Of a stretch of 34,042 nt of DNA, positions 5,957-15,324 are shown piece by piece. The stretch covers positions 1-34,042 of the forward strand of contig RQOS01000019.1 of the NCBI GenBank assembly GCA_008373205.1, in the 5' to 3' direction. The notes under the pieces are model-generated. The model did no database searches. It saw nothing but the letters and a program-made list of their open reading frames with translations, and had not been told where the DNA came from. The DNA is from SAR202 cluster bacterium. GTDB taxonomy: Bacteria > Chloroflexota > Dehalococcoidia > Lucifugimonadales > Lucifugimonadaceae. Each line of letters opens with the position of its first letter. Position 1 is the stretch's first letter. Position numbers and translations under genes: made by a program.

Positions 5957-6916
5957 TTAATTTGAAAAGTTGGTATAAACTAAATCCTCAATATTAAGAG
6001 ATTTATCCAAAAATTTATTTTCATTCATCCAATTATACGTATCATACCATTTACTTAAATCTTGATATCCAAAATTAACACTTTCAGATTGCCACATTGG
6101 TATTAATAACTTAATTCCTGCTCTCTCAACCTCTTCTTCAACAATCTCTTTCCCAGCTATGTTAATTAAGCTATCAATTGATTTTTCAGGATTTAATATA
6201 GAGAATTCGTAACCTTTTTTAATTGAACTTACGACTTTTTTCAATTCAGCATTTTTTTCCTCTAAAAATGTTGAATTAGTAATTAACAGTAGTTCATAAT
6301 AATCTGGTACACCCCATTCTTCTAATCTCATAATTTCTATATCGTAACCTTGAAGCTCCATAACTATTGATTCATGGGTCCAATAAGCTCCTATTATTGC
6401 ATCAACTGAACCTGATACTAAGGCCTTAACTAGTTCAAATCCGACATCAATCGTATCTACATCTTCAATATTTAAGCCATCGTTATTTAGTACAGTTTCC
6501 AACATTGCTTTATTTGATGGAATTCCAGGATAACCAATTGTTTTACCTTTTAAGTCACTAGGAGTTTGTATATTTTTTTCTTTGAGAGTCATAATAGAAT
6601 TTAATGGATGCTGGGAAATACTTAAAACTGAAATCACATCTAGGCCCGCAGATTGAGCTTGTAAAATATCTGGATGATATGATAGTCCAAGATCGTCACG
6701 ACCACTTGCAACTGATGATATTATTGCAGTAGGATCAGAAGGAGTATAAACTTCTAAATTTATATTTTCTTTTTCGAAAAATCCTTCATCAATAGCTGAA
6801 TATATTCCTGAGTGATTAGAATTTGGATACCAATCTAATGCCATGGAAACAGATTTGTCATTTTGACAACTTATAAAAGATATTCCTAAAATTATTCCTA
6901 GTAATATTTTTTTCAT
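5957..6916 (-). CDS. ABC transporter substrate-binding lipoprotein, NMT1/THI5-like (thiamin pyrimidine precursor)
   Basis: The N-terminus is a lipoprotein signal with lipobox FISC (C17 lipidated). The mature domain opens with the NMT1/THI5-like segment LDWYPNSNHSGIY (27-39), which in ThiY-type proteins binds formylaminopyrimidine or HMP. Length (319 residues) is normal for the family. It is the last gene of a three-gene leftward operon whose leader is a TPP riboswitch, which strongly supports a thiamin-precursor ligand over taurine or nitrate. The ATG shares one base with the stop of the permease gene (TAATG). Confidence 0.92.
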   Translation of the reverse strand: MKKILLGIILGISFISCQNDKSVSMALDWYPNSNHSGIYSAIDEGFFEKENINLEVYTPSDPTAIISSVASGRDDLGLSYHPDILQAQSAGLDVISVLSISQHPLNSIMTLKEKNIQTPSDLKGKTIGYPGIPSNKAMLETVLNNDGLNIEDVDTIDVGFELVKALVSGSVDAIIGAYWTHESIVMELQGYDIEIMRLEEWGVPDYYELLLITNSTFLEEKNAELKKVVSSIKKGYEFSILNPEKSIDSLINIAGKEIVEEEVERAGIKLLIPMWQSESVNFGYQDLSKWYDTYNWMNENKFLDKSLNIEDLVYTNFSN

Positions 6917-7677
6917 TAATAAACTCCCTTGATTAATTTTTTTTCTATTATTTTTACTGATAAAAAAAGAACTGATGCAAATAATGATAATAAAAAGATT
7001 GAAGCAAAAACTCTTTCAGTTTGAAATAAAGGTCCAGATACTTTCATAATCCAACCTAAACCTGCTTTCGATCCAATCCATTCTGCTACAACAGCTCCTA
7101 TTACTGAGCTTACAGCAGCAACCTTAAGACCTGAAAAAAAGCTTGGTAAAGCTAATTTAATTTTTAATAATGAATAAATTTGATAAGTTGATGCCCCCAT
7201 AGTTTTCAGCATATTTTCCATTTCATTATTTTTTTTATTTAGCCCGTCAAAAACTCCTATGCAAATAGGGAAAAATGATATTAAGAACACCACTATAATT
7301 TTAGATAATAATCCAGCTCCAAACCAAACAATAAGAATAGGTGCGAGAGCAAAAATAGGGATCACTTGAGATGCAATTACATATGGCAATATAGATCTCT
7401 CTAAAACTTTTGAAAGAGTCATTGAAAAACCTAAAATTATTCCTAGAATCACTGCTAGCGATAAACCTAATATAATTTCGTATCCTGTCACTGACATGTG
7501 ATATAACAGAAAACTTGTTGAGTCTAAGAATTCCAAAAAAATAGCTGATGGAGATGGTAAAAGCCAAGGTTCAAATAAATTCATAATTGATAAGATTTGC
7601 CAAATCGCTATGATAAAAATAAAGGCAAGAATTGGTAAATACCAATTTATTAATTTATTATATAAATTTTCTAACAA
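6916..7677 (-). CDS. ABC transporter permease, thiamin precursor uptake (ThiX-like)
   Basis: This 253-residue inner-membrane protein has about six hydrophobic helices, starting at residues 13-31. The binding-protein-dependent transport EAA loop is at about 152-180 (G161-A162 and LP at 177-178), where it contacts the ATPase. The start is TTG, immediately after the ATPase stop, with ribosome binding site AGAGGTAAGG. The next in-frame Met (32) would delete the first membrane helix, so TTG is preferred. Gene order ATPase-permease-binding protein and the riboswitch upstream place it in thiamin-precursor import. Confidence 0.92.
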   Translation of the reverse strand: MLENLYNKLINWYLPILAFIFIIAIWQILSIMNLFEPWLLPSPSAIFLEFLDSTSFLLYHMSVTGYEIILGLSLAVILGIILGFSMTLSKVLERSILPYVIASQVIPIFALAPILIVWFGAGLLSKIIVVFLISFFPICIGVFDGLNKKNNEMENMLKTMGASTYQIYSLLKIKLALPSFFSGLKVAAVSSVIGAVVAEWIGSKAGLGWIMKVSGPLFQTERVFASIFLLSLFASVLFLSVKIIEKKLIKGVY

Positions 7678-8424
7678 TTACCTTACCTCTTCTAATCTAC
7701 AATAGAGATCTTTACGAATCTCAAGAAATTCACTAGACATATTAATATTTGAACTTCTAGGATGGGGCATAGAAATATCTTTTTGAAACCTAAAATTATT
7801 TTTGCCTGAACCCATGATTATAACTTTATCTGATAAAAAAATTGCTTCATCGATATCGTGAGTGACTAAAATTATTGATTTTTTTATATATTTCTTTAAT
7901 TGCTCTAACCATATGTATAGTTCCATTCTAGTTATTGCATCGAGAGATGCAAAAGGCTCATCTAATAAAATAAATTCTGATCTTTGTATGATAGTTCTAA
8001 GAAAAGCAGCTCTTTGCTTCAATCCTCCAGACAATTCATTTGGATAGAAATCAATATATTCATTTATCCCAAGAATTTTAGACTTTTCAATTACATCATC
8101 ATAACTTGATTGACTTTTATCACCTAGAATTTTCAATGGTAAAAGAACATTTTCTTTTACAGTTAACCAAGGAAATAGTAGGTCATTCTGCTGCATGTAA
8201 GAAATATTTCCGAGTAAATCTTTGTTGTTATCTATCGTAATATTGCCAGAAATAGGTTTTAGTATTCCTGAAATCATTTGAAGAAGAGTGCTTTTACCAC
8301 ATCCACTGTGTCCTAAAATTGCAATAGTTTGACCACTAGGAAATTCGAAAGAAAGATTATTAATTATGGGAGCTTCGTTGTTGAAGCTATAATAAATTTT
8401 TTCTAAGATTATATTTTTTTTCAT
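7678..8424 (-). CDS. ABC transporter ATP-binding protein, thiamin precursor uptake (ThiZ-like)
   Basis: This 248-residue ATPase has Walker A GHSGCGKST (38-46), Q-loop at 78-79, signature LSGGLKQ (131-137), Walker B ending in D155-E156, and switch H189. It resembles the nitrate/taurine/thiamin-precursor subfamily. It is the first gene after the TPP riboswitch, and its ribosome binding site GGAGGGA is the 3' end of the aptamer. It should energise uptake of the pyrimidine precursor with the permease and lipoprotein downstream. Confidence 0.93.
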   Translation of the reverse strand: MKKNIILEKIYYSFNNEAPIINNLSFEFPSGQTIAILGHSGCGKSTLLQMISGILKPISGNITIDNNKDLLGNISYMQQNDLLFPWLTVKENVLLPLKILGDKSQSSYDDVIEKSKILGINEYIDFYPNELSGGLKQRAAFLRTIIQRSEFILLDEPFASLDAITRMELYIWLEQLKKYIKKSIILVTHDIDEAIFLSDKVIIMGSGKNNFRFQKDISMPHPRSSNINMSSEFLEIRKDLYCRLEEVR

Positions 8425-8426
8425 TC

Positions 8427-8504
8427 TTCCCTCCGCTAGAATTATCTAGTTCAGGTTTTATGGGTCGGTTTTATACCCTCTCAGCCCTTATGAGCTCCCC
8501 AAGT
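8427..8504 (-). promoter_or_regulatory. TPP (THI-box) riboswitch controlling the thiamin-precursor ABC operon
   Basis: Read on the minus strand, the conserved TPP aptamer blocks appear in order: GGGGAGC, GGGCTGAGAGGG, ACCC, AACCTGA, GATAAT, and GCGGAGGGAAG. The last block is both the closing aptamer strand and the ribosome binding site of the ATPase gene, whose ATG is 2 nt further on. There is no room for a terminator between aptamer and start codon, so control is most likely at translation: bound TPP would stabilise the closing helix and hide the ribosome binding site. P1 is short (CTT/AAG), but upstream CATT could extend it over AATG. Confidence 0.95.
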
Positions 8505-8551
8505 AAATGTTAATGTTAAATATACAATAGTTTTCAAATTTAAAAAAACAA

Positions 8552-9241
8552 GTGACAGACAAAAGAAATAAATTAATAAATTACACTAAGAATTTTTTTT
8601 TACTAATGTTAATAGTTTCTTGTTCAAAAAATGTTTCAATCGAATCTTTAAGTTCTGAAGAAATAATATCTTTATCACAAAGTAAAATAGTAAATTCTAA
8701 ATCTTTTTCTTTTGATTTAAAACATAAAAATGGATCAACTGAATTACCTGGAAATTATAATATTTCTAGAGCAAATGGTGATATTCAGAAACCAAAAAAT
8801 ATCATGATAGATGCTGAAATAATCTCTAATAATTTCCTTATAAAACTATCATATTTATCTCTAAACGATCAGTATTGGATTACTAATCCAATATCTTTTG
8901 ATTGGATGAAAACTCCAGAGGAAGATAATCCATTTAGAAATATTGATCCTATAAATATTTTGGGAGATATTTATTCAGAAATAGAATCGATTAGGTTGGT
9001 TGAATACAAAAATAAAGAGTATCTATTGAGGGCAAATATTAATTCAAATAATCTAACTTCTTTAGTTGGAGATATAATAATTCCTGATAAAAATGTGGAT
9101 ATTGAATTGTTTATAAATGATGAAGGATTTGTAAGAAAAATTTTAATTTTTGGAGAAGTCCAACCTAATGACTTAAGTAATACTTTACGAGAAATTTCAT
9201 TTTCTAACTGGAATGTTGAAATAGAATGGAATGAACCTTGA
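8552..9241 (+). CDS. LppX/LprAFG-type lipoprotein (LprG-like)
   Basis: This 229-residue lipoprotein has a basic N-terminus, a hydrophobic stretch (14-22) and lipobox IVSC with C24 lipidated. The mature part follows the LppX_LprAFG pattern: an early SLSQSKIVNSKSF helix, then FDLKH, LPG, GDIQKPK and a WMKTP strand. That family forms a hydrophobic cup that carries acylated lipids; mycobacterial LprG works with the MFS protein Rv1410c/P55. The next gene is an MFS exporter overlapping by 4 nt, which strengthens the assignment. The GTG start has no clear ribosome binding site, so translation may be leaderless or weak. Sequence similarity alone is modest. Confidence 0.75.
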   Translation: MTDKRNKLINYTKNFFLLMLIVSCSKNVSIESLSSEEIISLSQSKIVNSKSFSFDLKHKNGSTELPGNYNISRANGDIQKPKNIMIDAEIISNNFLIKLSYLSLNDQYWITNPISFDWMKTPEEDNPFRNIDPINILGDIYSEIESIRLVEYKNKEYLLRANINSNNLTSLVGDIIIPDKNVDIELFINDEGFVRKILIFGEVQPNDLSNTLREISFSNWNVEIEWNEP

Positions 9242-10698
9242 TTTTATATAAAAAAATTTTCTATATCTCTATTCTTTGCTTAGCCGTTTTTATAGCAGCT
9301 GATGATCAAACAGTAATTGTCACATTATTACCCAGCATGGTATTAGATTTAAGAATATCTATAGGTGAACTAAATAAAATTTCATGGACAATAACTTCTT
9401 ACCTTCTAGGTTTTACTATAATTATGCCAATTGCAGGAAAGATATGTGACAAGTATGGCTATAGGTCTACTTTAATATTTTCTCTTATCATTTTTTCCTT
9501 AGGTTCTTTACTCATAGGTATCACAAACTCAATACCTGAGAATTCTTATTTTCCTTCAAAATTAATGTGGATGATTATATTTAGATTTTTACAAGCTATG
9601 GGTGGAGGTGCCATAATACCAATCTGCATAGTAGGAGTATCGTTAATTTTAGAAAAAAAATATTGGATATATGGATTTGGTTTAATAGGAGCTTCTGCAG
9701 AGTTAGGGGGAGTAATTGGGCCACTCTGGGGGAGCCTAATAGTAGAATATTTTGATTGGGAAACTGCATTTTTAATCAATATACCAATATCATTATTGAT
9801 AATATTTCTTATGTATTTTTTACCTAAAAGTAGAATTGCTGATACTAGAATAAAAATTTTTGACATAGTAATTTTTTCTGTAATAATAACTCTTTCTACT
9901 TATTTAATATCTGAGTACAATGGAATTGATTTTTCTGCTTTGGTAATAATTTTAGCTCTGTTAGTTTTATCATCATTATTTCTGATAAGAATTTTAAAAA
10001 AACAACAGAATTTTATACCCAATGAATTATTCGATTATAAATCATTTTTGACATCATCATTTATTCATTTTTTTGTTGGAGCTAGCTTAATTGTTATTAT
10101 GGTAACTATTCCACTTTCAGCATCTACTATTCATCAAATGGATAATTTAGAAATTGGTTTATCTTTGTTAAACTTAACTTTATTTATTGGAGTTGGATCA
10201 ATTTTAGGAATATTTATATCAAAATTAAGTAATTTTATCGCATTAATAATTTCGGGCTGTATATGCTCATTTGGAATTTTTCTTTACTCACTAAATATAT
10301 CCAAGCCACCAGATGAATTATTTTTTATTTTAATGATAATTGGATTAGGGTTTGGAATTTACATAGTCCCAATTCACAATGCTGGACTTAATAAAATACC
10401 CGAAAAAATCAGAGGTATTTCATCTTCTATGATTTCTTTTTCTAGAATGATTGGAATGATTTTTGGACTATCCATTATGACAACTTTTGGGACAGCAAGA
10501 TTTTCAGAATTAGTATCTGGCATACAAATTTTTACTTCAAATACCAGTGATCAACAAGAAATGATCGAATCTATTAATTTAGCTGGCTTATCTGTGTTTG
10601 AAGAATTGATTTTCGGTGCTTTAATATTTTCACTTTTAGCACTTTTTATAACAATTTTATCTTTTTACTATACTGATACAACAGATGCAACTGCATAA
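9238..10698 (+). CDS. MFS exporter, DHA2-like (P55/Rv1410c-like), partner of the upstream lipoprotein
   Basis: This 486-residue membrane protein has about 14 predicted helices. TM1 ends in an acidic pair (D22-D23), MFS motif A-like GKICDKYGYR follows TM2, and TM4-TM5 carry RFLQAMGGG and GPLWG as in drug:H+ antiporter family 2. A soluble stretch near 422-452 lies before the last helix. The TTG start overlaps the lipoprotein stop, so the two are co-translated. By analogy with LprG-P55 the pair may move lipids or lipophilic compounds across the envelope. A plain multidrug exporter is the alternative. The 3' end overlaps convergent acpS by 31 bp. Confidence 0.87.
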   Translation: MILYKKIFYISILCLAVFIAADDQTVIVTLLPSMVLDLRISIGELNKISWTITSYLLGFTIIMPIAGKICDKYGYRSTLIFSLIIFSLGSLLIGITNSIPENSYFPSKLMWMIIFRFLQAMGGGAIIPICIVGVSLILEKKYWIYGFGLIGASAELGGVIGPLWGSLIVEYFDWETAFLINIPISLLIIFLMYFLPKSRIADTRIKIFDIVIFSVIITLSTYLISEYNGIDFSALVIILALLVLSSLFLIRILKKQQNFIPNELFDYKSFLTSSFIHFFVGASLIVIMVTIPLSASTIHQMDNLEIGLSLLNLTLFIGVGSILGIFISKLSNFIALIISGCICSFGIFLYSLNISKPPDELFFILMIIGLGFGIYIVPIHNAGLNKIPEKIRGISSSMISFSRMIGMIFGLSIMTTFGTARFSELVSGIQIFTSNTSDQQEMIESINLAGLSVFEELIFGALIFSLLALFITILSFYYTDTTDATA

Positions 10699-11977: not shown

Positions 11978-12033
11978 TGTAAATGCTAATTTTAAAGCTA
12001 GATGTAATATGAAAGTTCAATTAAAATTTGCCT

Positions 12034-13047
12034 ATGGCGACATTAAAACAAGAAAAAAATAAAAAAACTTCTAAATCTTCAAAAATTTCAATAGAAAAAA
12101 GAGAAATGCTAGATATCTATAAGAATATGTTTCTTATAAGACAGTTTGAGCTTGCATGCGGTGAAAATTATACAAAAGGAAATATTAGAGGTTTTCTACA
12201 TTTATATATCGGTCAAGAAGCAACAGCAGTAGGATCAATTTCCAATCTAGAAGATGAAGATTATATTGTTACTCATTACAGAGATCATGGGCATGCACTT
12301 GCAAGAGGCTTGGATGTTAACAGATCAATGGCAGAGCTTTTTGGAAAAAGTACGGGTCTTTCCAAAGGTAAAGGTGGCTCAATGCATTTATTTGATGCAG
12401 GTAAAAAATTTATGGGTGGACATGCCATAGTTGGAGGTCAATTTCCACTAGCTACTGGATTGGCGTTGGCTTGTCAGTATAAAAAAACTGGAGGAATTGT
12501 AGTTTGTTATTTCGGTGACGGTTCTACAAATCAAGGTACTTATCACGAGACTTTGAACTTAGCCTCAGTTTGGAACCTTCCAATATTATTTATTTTAGAA
12601 AATAATAAATACGGAATGGGATCTTCAATAGATAGAGTAAGAGCTGGCGGAGAAGATTTTTATACAGGAGCTTCCACTTATGATATTCCTGCGGCACAAG
12701 TCAATGGAATGGATGTTTTAGCGGTTAAAGAAGCTACAAAAATTGCAGTTGAAAAGGTTCGTCAAAATGGCGGACCTTTTTATTTAGAATGTAAAACTTT
12801 TAGATTTGTTGGCCACTCACTTGCTGATGGGCAAAAATACAGAAAAACAGACGAAATAAAAGAATGGGAAAAGCAAGATCCTCTTATAAGATTCCCTGAA
12901 TGGTTACTTTCTGCTGGTATAGCTAGTCAAAAAGATATAGAAAAAATTAATCAAGAAGTAAATTTAATAGTAAAAGAATCTGTTGATTTCGCAGAATCTA
13001 GTTCAGAACCAAAAAATTCTGAAGTATATGATGATATCTACAAGTAA
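12034..13047 (+). CDS. pdhA: Pyruvate dehydrogenase E1 component, alpha subunit
   Basis: This is the TPP-dependent E1 alpha subunit, which decarboxylates pyruvate and acetylates the lipoyl arm of E2. The TPP-binding motif runs from GDG (161-163) to NN (190-191), numbered from the ATG. HYRDHGHALARG, SKGKGGSMHLF and FLHLYIGQEA are also typical. I use the ATG at 12034 (337 residues); a TTG two codons earlier is possible. The N-terminal 20 residues are Lys-rich and poorly conserved. Genes for E1 beta and E2 follow directly. An acetoin dehydrogenase role is the main alternative. Confidence 0.93.
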   Translation: MATLKQEKNKKTSKSSKISIEKREMLDIYKNMFLIRQFELACGENYTKGNIRGFLHLYIGQEATAVGSISNLEDEDYIVTHYRDHGHALARGLDVNRSMAELFGKSTGLSKGKGGSMHLFDAGKKFMGGHAIVGGQFPLATGLALACQYKKTGGIVVCYFGDGSTNQGTYHETLNLASVWNLPILFILENNKYGMGSSIDRVRAGGEDFYTGASTYDIPAAQVNGMDVLAVKEATKIAVEKVRQNGGPFYLECKTFRFVGHSLADGQKYRKTDEIKEWEKQDPLIRFPEWLLSAGIASQKDIEKINQEVNLIVKESVDFAESSSEPKNSEVYDDIYK

Positions 13048-13065
13048 GTAGAGAAAGAGCTTAAA

Positions 13066-14046
13066 ATGCCCCAATTAGTAATGAGAGAAGCTATAAAAAA
13101 AGGTCTTGAAGAAGCTCTTCAAAATGACCCTAATGTTCTTATTCTAGGAGAGGATATAGGAGCATATGGTGGAGCTTATGCTGTTACTGATGGATTCCTA
13201 GATAAATTTGGTCCTGAAAGAATTAAGGATACCCCTATTTCTGAAGCAACATTCATTGGTACAGGCATAGGAGCAGCTAGTGCTGGGCTTAGGCCAATTA
13301 TTGAGCTTATGTCAATCAGTTTTTCTTTAGTTGGATTTGATCAGATAGTTAACATGGCAGCAAATATTAGATATATGTCAGGTGGGCAAATAGATGTTCC
13401 TATGGTTATTAGAGCACCTACTGGAGCAGGAGTTCAACTTGCTGCTACACATTCACAAAGTTTTGAAACATGGTTAGCTGAAGTCCCGGGACTTTACTGT
13501 GTTTGTCCTTCTAATCCAAAAGATGCTCTTGGTTTATTAAGAACCGCCATAAAAGATAATAATCCTGTGATATTTGCAGAACCTGCTTTATTATATGGGA
13601 CAAAAGGTGATGTACCTGAAGAATATTATGAAATTCCATTAGGATCTGCTTCAGTAGTAAAAAAAGGAAATGATATAACCTTAGTTTCCTATGGAGCAGG
13701 AATGAAAGTTATCGAGGAAGTTTCAACCATTCTAGATAAAAAGAATATTAGTTCGGAGATAATAGACCTTAGATCATTAAGTCCAATTGATTATGCAACT
13801 ATTGGGGAGTCTGTAAAGAAAACTAATAAATTGCTAGCACTAGATACTTCAAGAAGAAACGGTGGAATAATGGCAGAAGTAGTAGCTGATGTGCAAGAAA
13901 ATTTTAATGATTGGCTTGATTCTCCTATAATTAGAATAGGAGCAAAAGATGTTCCATGGCCTTATAATAAAAATTTAGAATCAAATGCTTATCCTGATCC
14001 TAACGAGATAGTGGATGAGATAAATAATAAAATACTAAACTTATAG
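13066..14046 (+). CDS. pdhB: Pyruvate dehydrogenase E1 component, beta subunit
   Basis: E1 beta forms the heterotetramer with E1 alpha. The 326-residue protein has the family's opening (MREAIKKGLEEAL), LGEDIG at 27-32, DTPISEATFIGTGIG (55-69) with E60, which activates TPP, and a transketolase C-terminal domain (about 200-320). It starts 18 nt after pdhA, and E2 follows 9 nt later, so the three are one transcription unit. Sequence alone does not exclude a 2-oxoacid other than pyruvate. Confidence 0.94.
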   Translation: MPQLVMREAIKKGLEEALQNDPNVLILGEDIGAYGGAYAVTDGFLDKFGPERIKDTPISEATFIGTGIGAASAGLRPIIELMSISFSLVGFDQIVNMAANIRYMSGGQIDVPMVIRAPTGAGVQLAATHSQSFETWLAEVPGLYCVCPSNPKDALGLLRTAIKDNNPVIFAEPALLYGTKGDVPEEYYEIPLGSASVVKKGNDITLVSYGAGMKVIEEVSTILDKKNISSEIIDLRSLSPIDYATIGESVKKTNKLLALDTSRRNGGIMAEVVADVQENFNDWLDSPIIRIGAKDVPWPYNKNLESNAYPDPNEIVDEINNKILNL

Positions 14047-14055
14047 GAGAAAACT

Positions 14056-15324
14056 TTGGCTAACGAAATAACAATGCCTTCAATGGGAGCTGATATGACT
14101 GAAGGAACAATAGTTAAATGGCTAAAAAATGAAGGAGATAAAGTTTCTAAAGGTGATAAGCTTGCAGAAATTGAAACCGATAAAACTGTTGTAGAAATGG
14201 AAGCATATAACGAAGGTTTTCTTAGAAAAATAACATCTAGTGAAGGATCTGTTGTCAAAGTAGGAAAAATAATTGGATATATTGGAGAAATGGATGAAGA
14301 AGTTCCTGATGATGTTCAAGAAGACAATAGTGAACCTAAAGCAGAAATAAAAAATGTTGAACCGGAGCCAGAAAAAACTTTAGCAAAAGATGAATCAAAT
14401 AATGATTCATCTAAAAGTCAGTCATTAGACATTACATTGAGTTCTGATTCTGTACAAATAAAAGCATCTCCTATGGCAAAAAGATTAGCAAAAGAAAAAA
14501 ATATAAATTTAGCTGATATAAATGGGACTGGACCGGGAGGAAGAATTACTAAAGATGATGTAGAGAATCATGTACCTGGGCCTTCTCTAATCTCTTCAAA
14601 TCAATTAGGGAAAAGTCAAAATATTTCTCTTGATAGTAACGATATTCCATTAAATTCAATGAGACAAGCAATTGCTAGAGTTACAGTTAGATCAAAAACT
14701 GAAATACCACATTTTCAAGTTACAGTTGAAATAGATATGACTGAAGCTATGAAAATGAGAGCTGATATAAACGAAGATATTGAAAAAAATGGAATTAAAG
14801 TTTCTGTTAATGATCTTATTCTCAAAGCAACAATAAATTCACTTTTAAAATATCCAAAATGGAATACATCTTTTGATGGTGATAAATTAATCTCACACTC
14901 AAGTATTAATTTAGGCATTGCTATAGCTCTTGAACAAGGTCTTATTGTTCCTGCAATATTAGATGCTCAAAACTTAGACTTACTATCTTTGGCTTCTAAA
15001 TCAAAAGATTTAGGAAACCGTGCTAGGGGTAATGGAGATCCTCTTTCTAATCAAGAGTTAACTTCAGGCACTTTTTCAACTTCTAATTTAGGTATGTTTG
15101 GCACTCACTCATTTACAGCTATAATCGTTCCTCCGCAAAGTGGAATTATTGCTTTGGGTGAGGTAAAAAAAGAAGCAAAAGTTGTTAATGATGATATCCA
15201 AATCAGACAAGTAATGTACGCTACATTATCAGCTGATCATAGAGTAGGAGATGGGGCTGAAGGAGCAGTTTTTATGAAAGAATTTAAAGATCTTCTAGAA
15301 AAACCATCTAGACTATTATTATGA
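14056..15324 (+). CDS. pdhC: Dihydrolipoamide acetyltransferase (E2) of pyruvate dehydrogenase
   Basis: Domains in order: one lipoyl domain (1-78; K43 in ETDKTVVEME carries lipoate), a flexible Asp/Glu/Ser-rich linker, the peripheral subunit-binding domain (about 136-172, ASPMAKRLAKE to GRITKDDV), a second linker, and the catalytic acyltransferase domain (195-422) with HRVGDG at 395-400 (H395, D399). The TTG start has an AGGAG ribosome binding site. No E3 (dihydrolipoamide dehydrogenase) gene is in the run, so it must lie elsewhere. The stop overlaps the thyX start by 4 nt (ATGA). Confidence 0.94.
   Translation: MANEITMPSMGADMTEGTIVKWLKNEGDKVSKGDKLAEIETDKTVVEMEAYNEGFLRKITSSEGSVVKVGKIIGYIGEMDEEVPDDVQEDNSEPKAEIKNVEPEPEKTLAKDESNNDSSKSQSLDITLSSDSVQIKASPMAKRLAKEKNINLADINGTGPGGRITKDDVENHVPGPSLISSNQLGKSQNISLDSNDIPLNSMRQAIARVTVRSKTEIPHFQVTVEIDMTEAMKMRADINEDIEKNGIKVSVNDLILKATINSLLKYPKWNTSFDGDKLISHSSINLGIAIALEQGLIVPAILDAQNLDLLSLASKSKDLGNRARGNGDPLSNQELTSGTFSTSNLGMFGTHSFTAIIVPPQSGIIALGEVKKEAKVVNDDIQIRQVMYATLSADHRVGDGAEGAVFMKEFKDLLEKPSRLLL

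Follow-up and report, generated by a model that had tools for sequence, protein, structure and literature searches.

Can a lipoprotein and a transporter of the LprG-P55 type form a working pair outside mycobacteria, and what could they do there? Work on LprG-P55 has been almost wholly confined to mycobacteria, where the pair is treated as a virulence and envelope system providing the mycomembrane with TAG. The question arose from a sequence-only reading of two overlapping genes in a stretch of 34,042 nucleotides (contig RQOS01000019.1; the window), which had supposed that the host might be a marine Chloroflexota. The source genome (G000; assembly of 1.33 Mb, 82% complete) is indeed of the SAR202 type of Chloroflexota (Dehalococcoidia). 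Its nearest relatives in public genome records include "Chloroflexi bacterium TMED70" and "Dehalococcoidales bacterium H12BWF_bin.23," and the cultured "Candidatus Lucifugimonas marina" JH1073 is a more distant relative.

The upstream gene (8552-9241, plus strand) starts with GTG and encodes an LprG-like (LppX_LprAFG-type) lipoprotein of 229 amino acids, as judged from its open reading frame, family profile, and fold. The downstream gene (9238-10698, plus strand) starts with TTG and encodes a P55/Rv1410-like, 14-helix DHA2 transporter of the MFS with 486 amino acids, whose best PDB match by sequence, profile, and fold E-value is MHAS2168 (8pnl). Stop and start overlap by the 4 nt TTGA, located exactly where they had been read (9238-9241, plus strand), and the near relatives L061 and L062 have the identical -4 overlap. 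A lipoprotein gene followed directly by the MFS gene repeats the arrangement of LprG-Rv1410 (P55; Rv1411c-Rv1410c) in Mycobacterium, as had been proposed, and that operon is described as highly conserved among mycobacteria (PMC10576003). Across SAR202, identity ranges from 18 to 99% for the lipoprotein and from 29 to 91% for the MFS protein; because both are conserved and stay adjacent, the two reading frames are not a chance pair. The explanation that we favor, with a probability of roughly 0.78, is a two-gene operon of the LprG-P55 (Rv1411-Rv1410) type, in which a proton-driven lipid extractor would pass its cargo to a membrane-anchored carrier.

Family and fold of the lipoprotein

The signal peptide ends in the lipobox IVSC (residues 21-24; 8612-8623, plus strand), with Cys-24 as the predicted lipidated residue on the grounds of sequence and conservation. 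The lipobox had been called clear, and the family alignment agrees: Cys-24 is at least 90% conserved among the 37 sequences of alignment A1. Both Lgt and LspA are encoded in the source genome, and they were found in 39 of 40 and 20 of 21 relatives, respectively; their presence across these genomes suggests that the lipoprotein can be anchored.

Membership in the LppX_LprAFG family, expected from the sequence-only reading, held for the family as a whole and could not be detected from the window protein taken singly. PF07161 (LppX_LprAFG) matched 21 of the 37 sequences in A1 (best 7.3e-20), whereas a direct Pfam scan of the window lipoprotein alone gave no match. A PF07161 search of the source genome was likewise negative, which we ascribe to sequence divergence, as PF07161 members can be reached through the A1 profile of the homologues. 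The same Pfam family also matched paired lipoproteins elsewhere in the phylum, with values of up to 1.0e-47 (163.7 bits, G294). The link to LppX_LprAFG is therefore made through the homologues and the predicted structure.

Compared with the PDB, the A1 profile placed LprG first (3mh8, E = 2.9e-7) and LprF next (0.0036), and LppX was not listed. The AlphaFold2 model of the lipoprotein (pLDDT 88, pTM 0.80) retrieved LprG at Foldseek ranks 1-7 (best 6e-10), with ranks 1-8 made up of LprG and LprF. VIA Z values for the model were 19.6 for LprG, 18.8 for LprF, 14.6 for LppX, and at most 12 for proteins of the LolA/RseB type, indicating that LprF and LppX share the fold. In structural alignments, the window protein is only ~9-10% identical to LprG. 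LprG and LprF are tied by structure, and we prefer the name LprG because the partner is of the P55 type; to our knowledge, neither LprF nor LppX is a P55 partner in mycobacteria.

From the fold, a lipid-sized hydrophobic cavity would be expected in this lipoprotein. Along the strands, hydropathy alternates to a greater degree than in shuffled columns (p = 0.008), and position 88, the equivalent of LprG V91, is mostly alanine in the family, both of which lend weak support to an interior that may be lined for lipid. Two other assignments were discarded: DUF4390 stayed below threshold in Pfam/NCBIfam (17 bits against a cut-off of 27) and was taken as a chance match, and galectin was rejected as a weak match from single-sequence phmmer against the PDB (E = 1.2).

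Transporter fold and mechanistic residues

When compared with the PDB as a single sequence, the MFS protein matched MHAS2168 (8pnl, an Rv1410 homologue) at 2.1e-33 versus 4.5e-17 for QacA. A profile from alignment A2 (33 members) scored MHAS2168 at 326 bits, with EfpA as the next MFS protein at 154. The AlphaFold2 model (pLDDT 86, pTM 0.86) is also nearest to 8pnl by Foldseek E-value and has the 14-helix layout of P55.

The last two helices of this model are long (residues 389-426 and 436-485). They form a predicted periplasmic extension of TM11/TM12 at about residues 417-454 (10486-10599, plus strand, boundaries approximate), a region spanned by the profile alignment to MHAS2168. A soluble segment ahead of the last helix had been suspected here; an element is present, and the model makes it an elongated pair of helices, as in P55, and not a plain loop. 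Truncation of the TM11/TM12 extension abolished the function of MHAS2168 (PMC10576003). An element is likewise found between TM11 and TM12 of QacA (PMC10576003).

Remm et al. 2023 (PMC10576003) described an ion lock between E157 and R426 of MHAS2168 (E147-R417 in Rv1410), which 17 mycobacterial homologues share and which is missing from 46 other MFS transporters that have been characterised. They also identified D35 of MHAS2168 together with R118, Q121, and N184, and the importance of P55-type residues was demonstrated by mutation (PMC10576003). By alignment, the equivalents in the window protein are E155 and R403 for the lock and D23, R116, Q119, and N181 for the remaining residues, with D23/R116 corresponding to the D22-R108 pair of Rv1410. 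We counted these positions in 124 SAR202 rows, in which some genomes are represented more than once. D23 in TM1 (9304-9306, plus strand; D22 in Rv1410, D35 in MHAS2168) is aspartate in 123 of 123 rows having the column, and R116 in TM4 (9583-9585, plus strand; R118 in MHAS2168) is arginine in 121 of 121. The ion-lock glutamate E155 in TM5 (9700-9702, plus strand; E147 in Rv1410, E157 in MHAS2168) is likewise invariant (120 of 120), and its partner R403 in TM11 (10444-10446, plus strand; R417 in Rv1410, R426 in MHAS2168) is arginine in 112 and lysine in 2 of 114 rows. The acidic residues seen earlier in TM1 are D22 and D23. The TM1 aspartate, the TM4 arginine, the E-R lock, and the extended TM11/TM12 are thus all features held in common with LprG-Rv1410.

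In other Chloroflexota families, D23, R116, and R403 do not vary among the 27 MFS proteins whose genes adjoin a lipoprotein gene. At the E155 position, 22 of these 27 proteins carry glutamate and 5 carry threonine (L145-L178), with the arginine kept.

Pairing across Chloroflexota and rival explanations

The co-occurrence survey that the sequence-only reading had called for came out in favor of the pair. A first-pass search detected the lipoprotein in 41 of 60 related genomes, and the MFS gene was adjacent in 39 of these 41; one genome (G010) has the lipoprotein and no P55-type MFS protein (best 208 bits). Among the 19 genomes negative for the lipoprotein in the first pass, G039 in fact has both genes, and G029 has a P55-type MFS gene at a contig edge. 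The remaining 17, all from the same order, contained neither a P55-type MFS protein nor a full-length lipoprotein of this family, with one partial weak match in G050. We also gathered 80 named SAR202/Dehalococcoidia loci with the MFS profile. The lipoprotein gene lies upstream on the same strand in 77, and the other 3 start at or near a contig edge, so that the two genes are neighbors in 77 of the 77 loci not cut in this way.

The lipoprotein profile matched 110 of 301 Chloroflexota genomes sampled, some of the weakest matches being partial. At 34 loci from other families of the phylum, a P55-like MFS gene follows immediately downstream in 27, lies 4 kb away in one (L165), and was not found in the stretch in 6. 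These counts are not independent events, because related genomes were counted and the sets share members. As judged from these genome searches, the pair is widespread in Chloroflexota and not special to the source genome; it is also present in the cultured "Candidatus Lucifugimonas marina." By computation, we have shown that both partners are homologous to their mycobacterial counterparts, that the two genes are paired in an operon and absent together, that mechanistic residues are conserved, and that the predicted folds are those of LprG and P55; these results sustain the earlier proposal of an LprG-like lipoprotein with a P55-like MFS protein outside mycobacteria.

Several genomes depart from the simple arrangement. 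G055 has two P55-type MFS genes (C9:74361-75740 and C6:1472-2887), both unlinked to the lipoprotein gene, and G039 apparently carries two lipoprotein/P55-type sets (C1:2053035-2055224 and C1:3324234-3328039), one adjacent and one ~1.7 kb apart. In G021, a second lipoprotein copy (L051 on C123, 807-3104) is followed by an MFS gene broken into three ORFs, which may reflect either the decay of a duplicate or a fault in the assembly. Downstream of the pair in the window lies a pyruvate dehydrogenase-type E1a/E1b/E2 cluster (12028-15324, plus strand). At 48 of 80 SAR202 loci, an E2 homologue lies no more than 5 kb from the pair, frequently in the opposite orientation, pointing to a gene order that may have been conserved for long. 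Corynebacterium glutamicum has a mycomembrane. As a member of the control set, it gave no PF07161 match, a result that is suggestive only. An actinobacterial comparator from a plasmid search, an LppX_LprAFG gene of Tsukamurella without an adjacent MFS gene, was uninformative.

The pair could be read differently, with the MFS protein as an ordinary DHA2 efflux pump for drugs or metabolites (EmrB/EfpA/QacA-like) and the lipoprotein as an accessory or a coincidental neighbor. Pfam and NCBIfam indeed offer no name more specific than MFS_1 and efflux_EmrB, with efflux_EmrB scoring under its cut-off, and the earliest description of P55 was as a drug pump (PMC10576003). EfpA, QacA, and EmrB belong to the same superfamily and have 14 helices in the DHA2 layout; this fold is common, and because TM-scores to the MFS model are similar for EmrB (0.84), EfpA, and QacA, the fold alone cannot separate P55 from drug pumps. 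What separates them is that MHAS2168 scores twice as high as any drug pump by profile, EfpA, QacA, and EmrB reaching half or less, and that these lack a lipoprotein partner of the LprG type. In the SAR202 genomes tested, MFS scores are bimodal (at least 484 bits for the P55 type versus at most 227 for other DHA2 proteins), and the E-R lock kept here was not seen in the aligned QacA or EfpA rows. The pairing of the two genes and their shared absence argue against a coincidental neighbor. On profile scores, ion lock, and pairing, we rejected a drug pump as the main explanation and consider it unlikely.

We judge it still less likely that lipid is carried in another direction or role, through uptake or retrograde transfer, or with the lipoprotein as a general LolA-like carrier or a lipid sensor. 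In molecular dynamics of MHAS2168, lipid was seen to travel in both directions (PMC10576003), but the MFS partner and its ion lock match the exporter P55. Similarly, the lipoprotein fold lies within the wider LolA/LppX/RseB superfamily and resembles the half-barrel of LolA/LolB and RseB that binds lipids or lipoproteins, but the match to these proteins is clearly weaker than that to LprG and LprF (Z ~19 versus at most 12), and no outer-membrane context was found for the pair. Omp85 is absent from 40 relatives, which makes Lol-type traffic towards an outer membrane of the Gram-negative kind unlikely; this absence bears on Gram-negative outer membranes and not on mycomembranes. Lastly, the pair might belong to an adjoining uptake system for thiamine precursors. 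A TPP riboswitch (8411-8511, minus strand; Rfam, 70.8 bits) precedes a ThiXYZ-type ABC transporter (5957-8424, minus strand) that diverges from the operon just upstream. Within 5 kb of the pair, ThiZ-like genes occur in 37 of 80 SAR202 loci and ThiY and ThiX in 18, and thi genes are also found near both lipoprotein genes that lack an adjacent MFS gene (L042 and L045). However, the riboswitch and the pair lie on opposite strands, and it is only the ABC genes that the riboswitch precedes. At many loci, the pair has no thi gene closer than 5 kb, and the neighborhood is accounted for by a gene order that related genomes have in common. We know of no vitamin role for either family. A thiamine-related role was thus rejected as the main explanation from the riboswitch strand and the loci without thi genes, and we regard it as highly improbable.

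Envelope, cargo, and a proposed mechanism

The host of the LprG-P55-type pair differs from Mycobacterium. Cultured SAR202 cells are described as monoderm; they are said to lack genes for peptidoglycan synthesis, to bear a layer resembling an S-layer, and to contain 10-methyl fatty acids (PMC10444878). Loss of LprG-Rv1410 is reported to make TAG accumulate in M. tuberculosis (PMC4709180). WS/DGAT (PF03007) was found in 0 of 40 SAR202 relatives; we take this negative as valid because the same search detected the family above its cut-off in 15 of 201 Chloroflexota. WS/DGAT is the main bacterial family of TAG synthases, although other routes to TAG exist. Its absence from the 40 relatives makes TAG no obvious cargo in SAR202; TAG itself may not be what is carried there, and either TAG made by another route or a different lipid is conceivable. 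For SAR202, our results give no support to a delivery of TAG to a mycomembrane.

An LprG-like lipoprotein and WS/DGAT occur together in G063, G104, G113, G185, and G217 (family f46) and in G095, G138, and G233 (family f59). Because of this co-occurrence, TAG export is more plausible in these two families than in SAR202.

By analogy with the mycobacterial work, from which export direction, proton coupling, and hand-over are inferred, the central cavity of the MFS protein would accept a strongly apolar lipid with several acyl chains out of the membrane core. Protons moving via D23/R116 and the E155-R403 ion lock would drive the switch to an outward-facing state, after which the long helices TM11/TM12 would pass the lipid to the membrane-anchored lipoprotein. 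This carrier, as modeled, would hold the lipid outside the membrane in a hydrophobic half-barrel of the LprG type. In these apparently monoderm cells, the lipid would end up in the outer leaflet, on the side of the S-layer, or in the medium, and not in a mycomembrane. The mechanism is probably common to the SAR202 pair and mycobacteria. More tentatively, and at somewhat less than even odds, the pair in monoderm, peptidoglycan-lacking SAR202 and other Chloroflexota exports a non-TAG lipid to the cell surface, for example a di- or tri-acylated glycolipid.

Our literature searches (LprG, LppX_LprAFG, and SAR202 lipoprotein/MFS) found no paper on the pair in Chloroflexota, with incomplete coverage and few subscription journals; database annotation of single LppX_LprAFG proteins in the phylum may already exist. 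With a conserved, mechanistically intact pair across SAR202 and much of Chloroflexota, in cells described as monoderm and, for SAR202, devoid of WS/DGAT, the transport mechanism is no longer tied to either the mycomembrane or TAG. As the pair is present in the cultured "Candidatus Lucifugimonas marina," its cargo and surface role can be tested in living cells of a non-pathogen. Because the pair spans bacteria that lack the mycobacterial outer membrane, its basic job appears to be more general than sealing that membrane. If this is true, the general role would be surface lipid export independent of a mycomembrane, and the mycobacterial use would be a specialisation.
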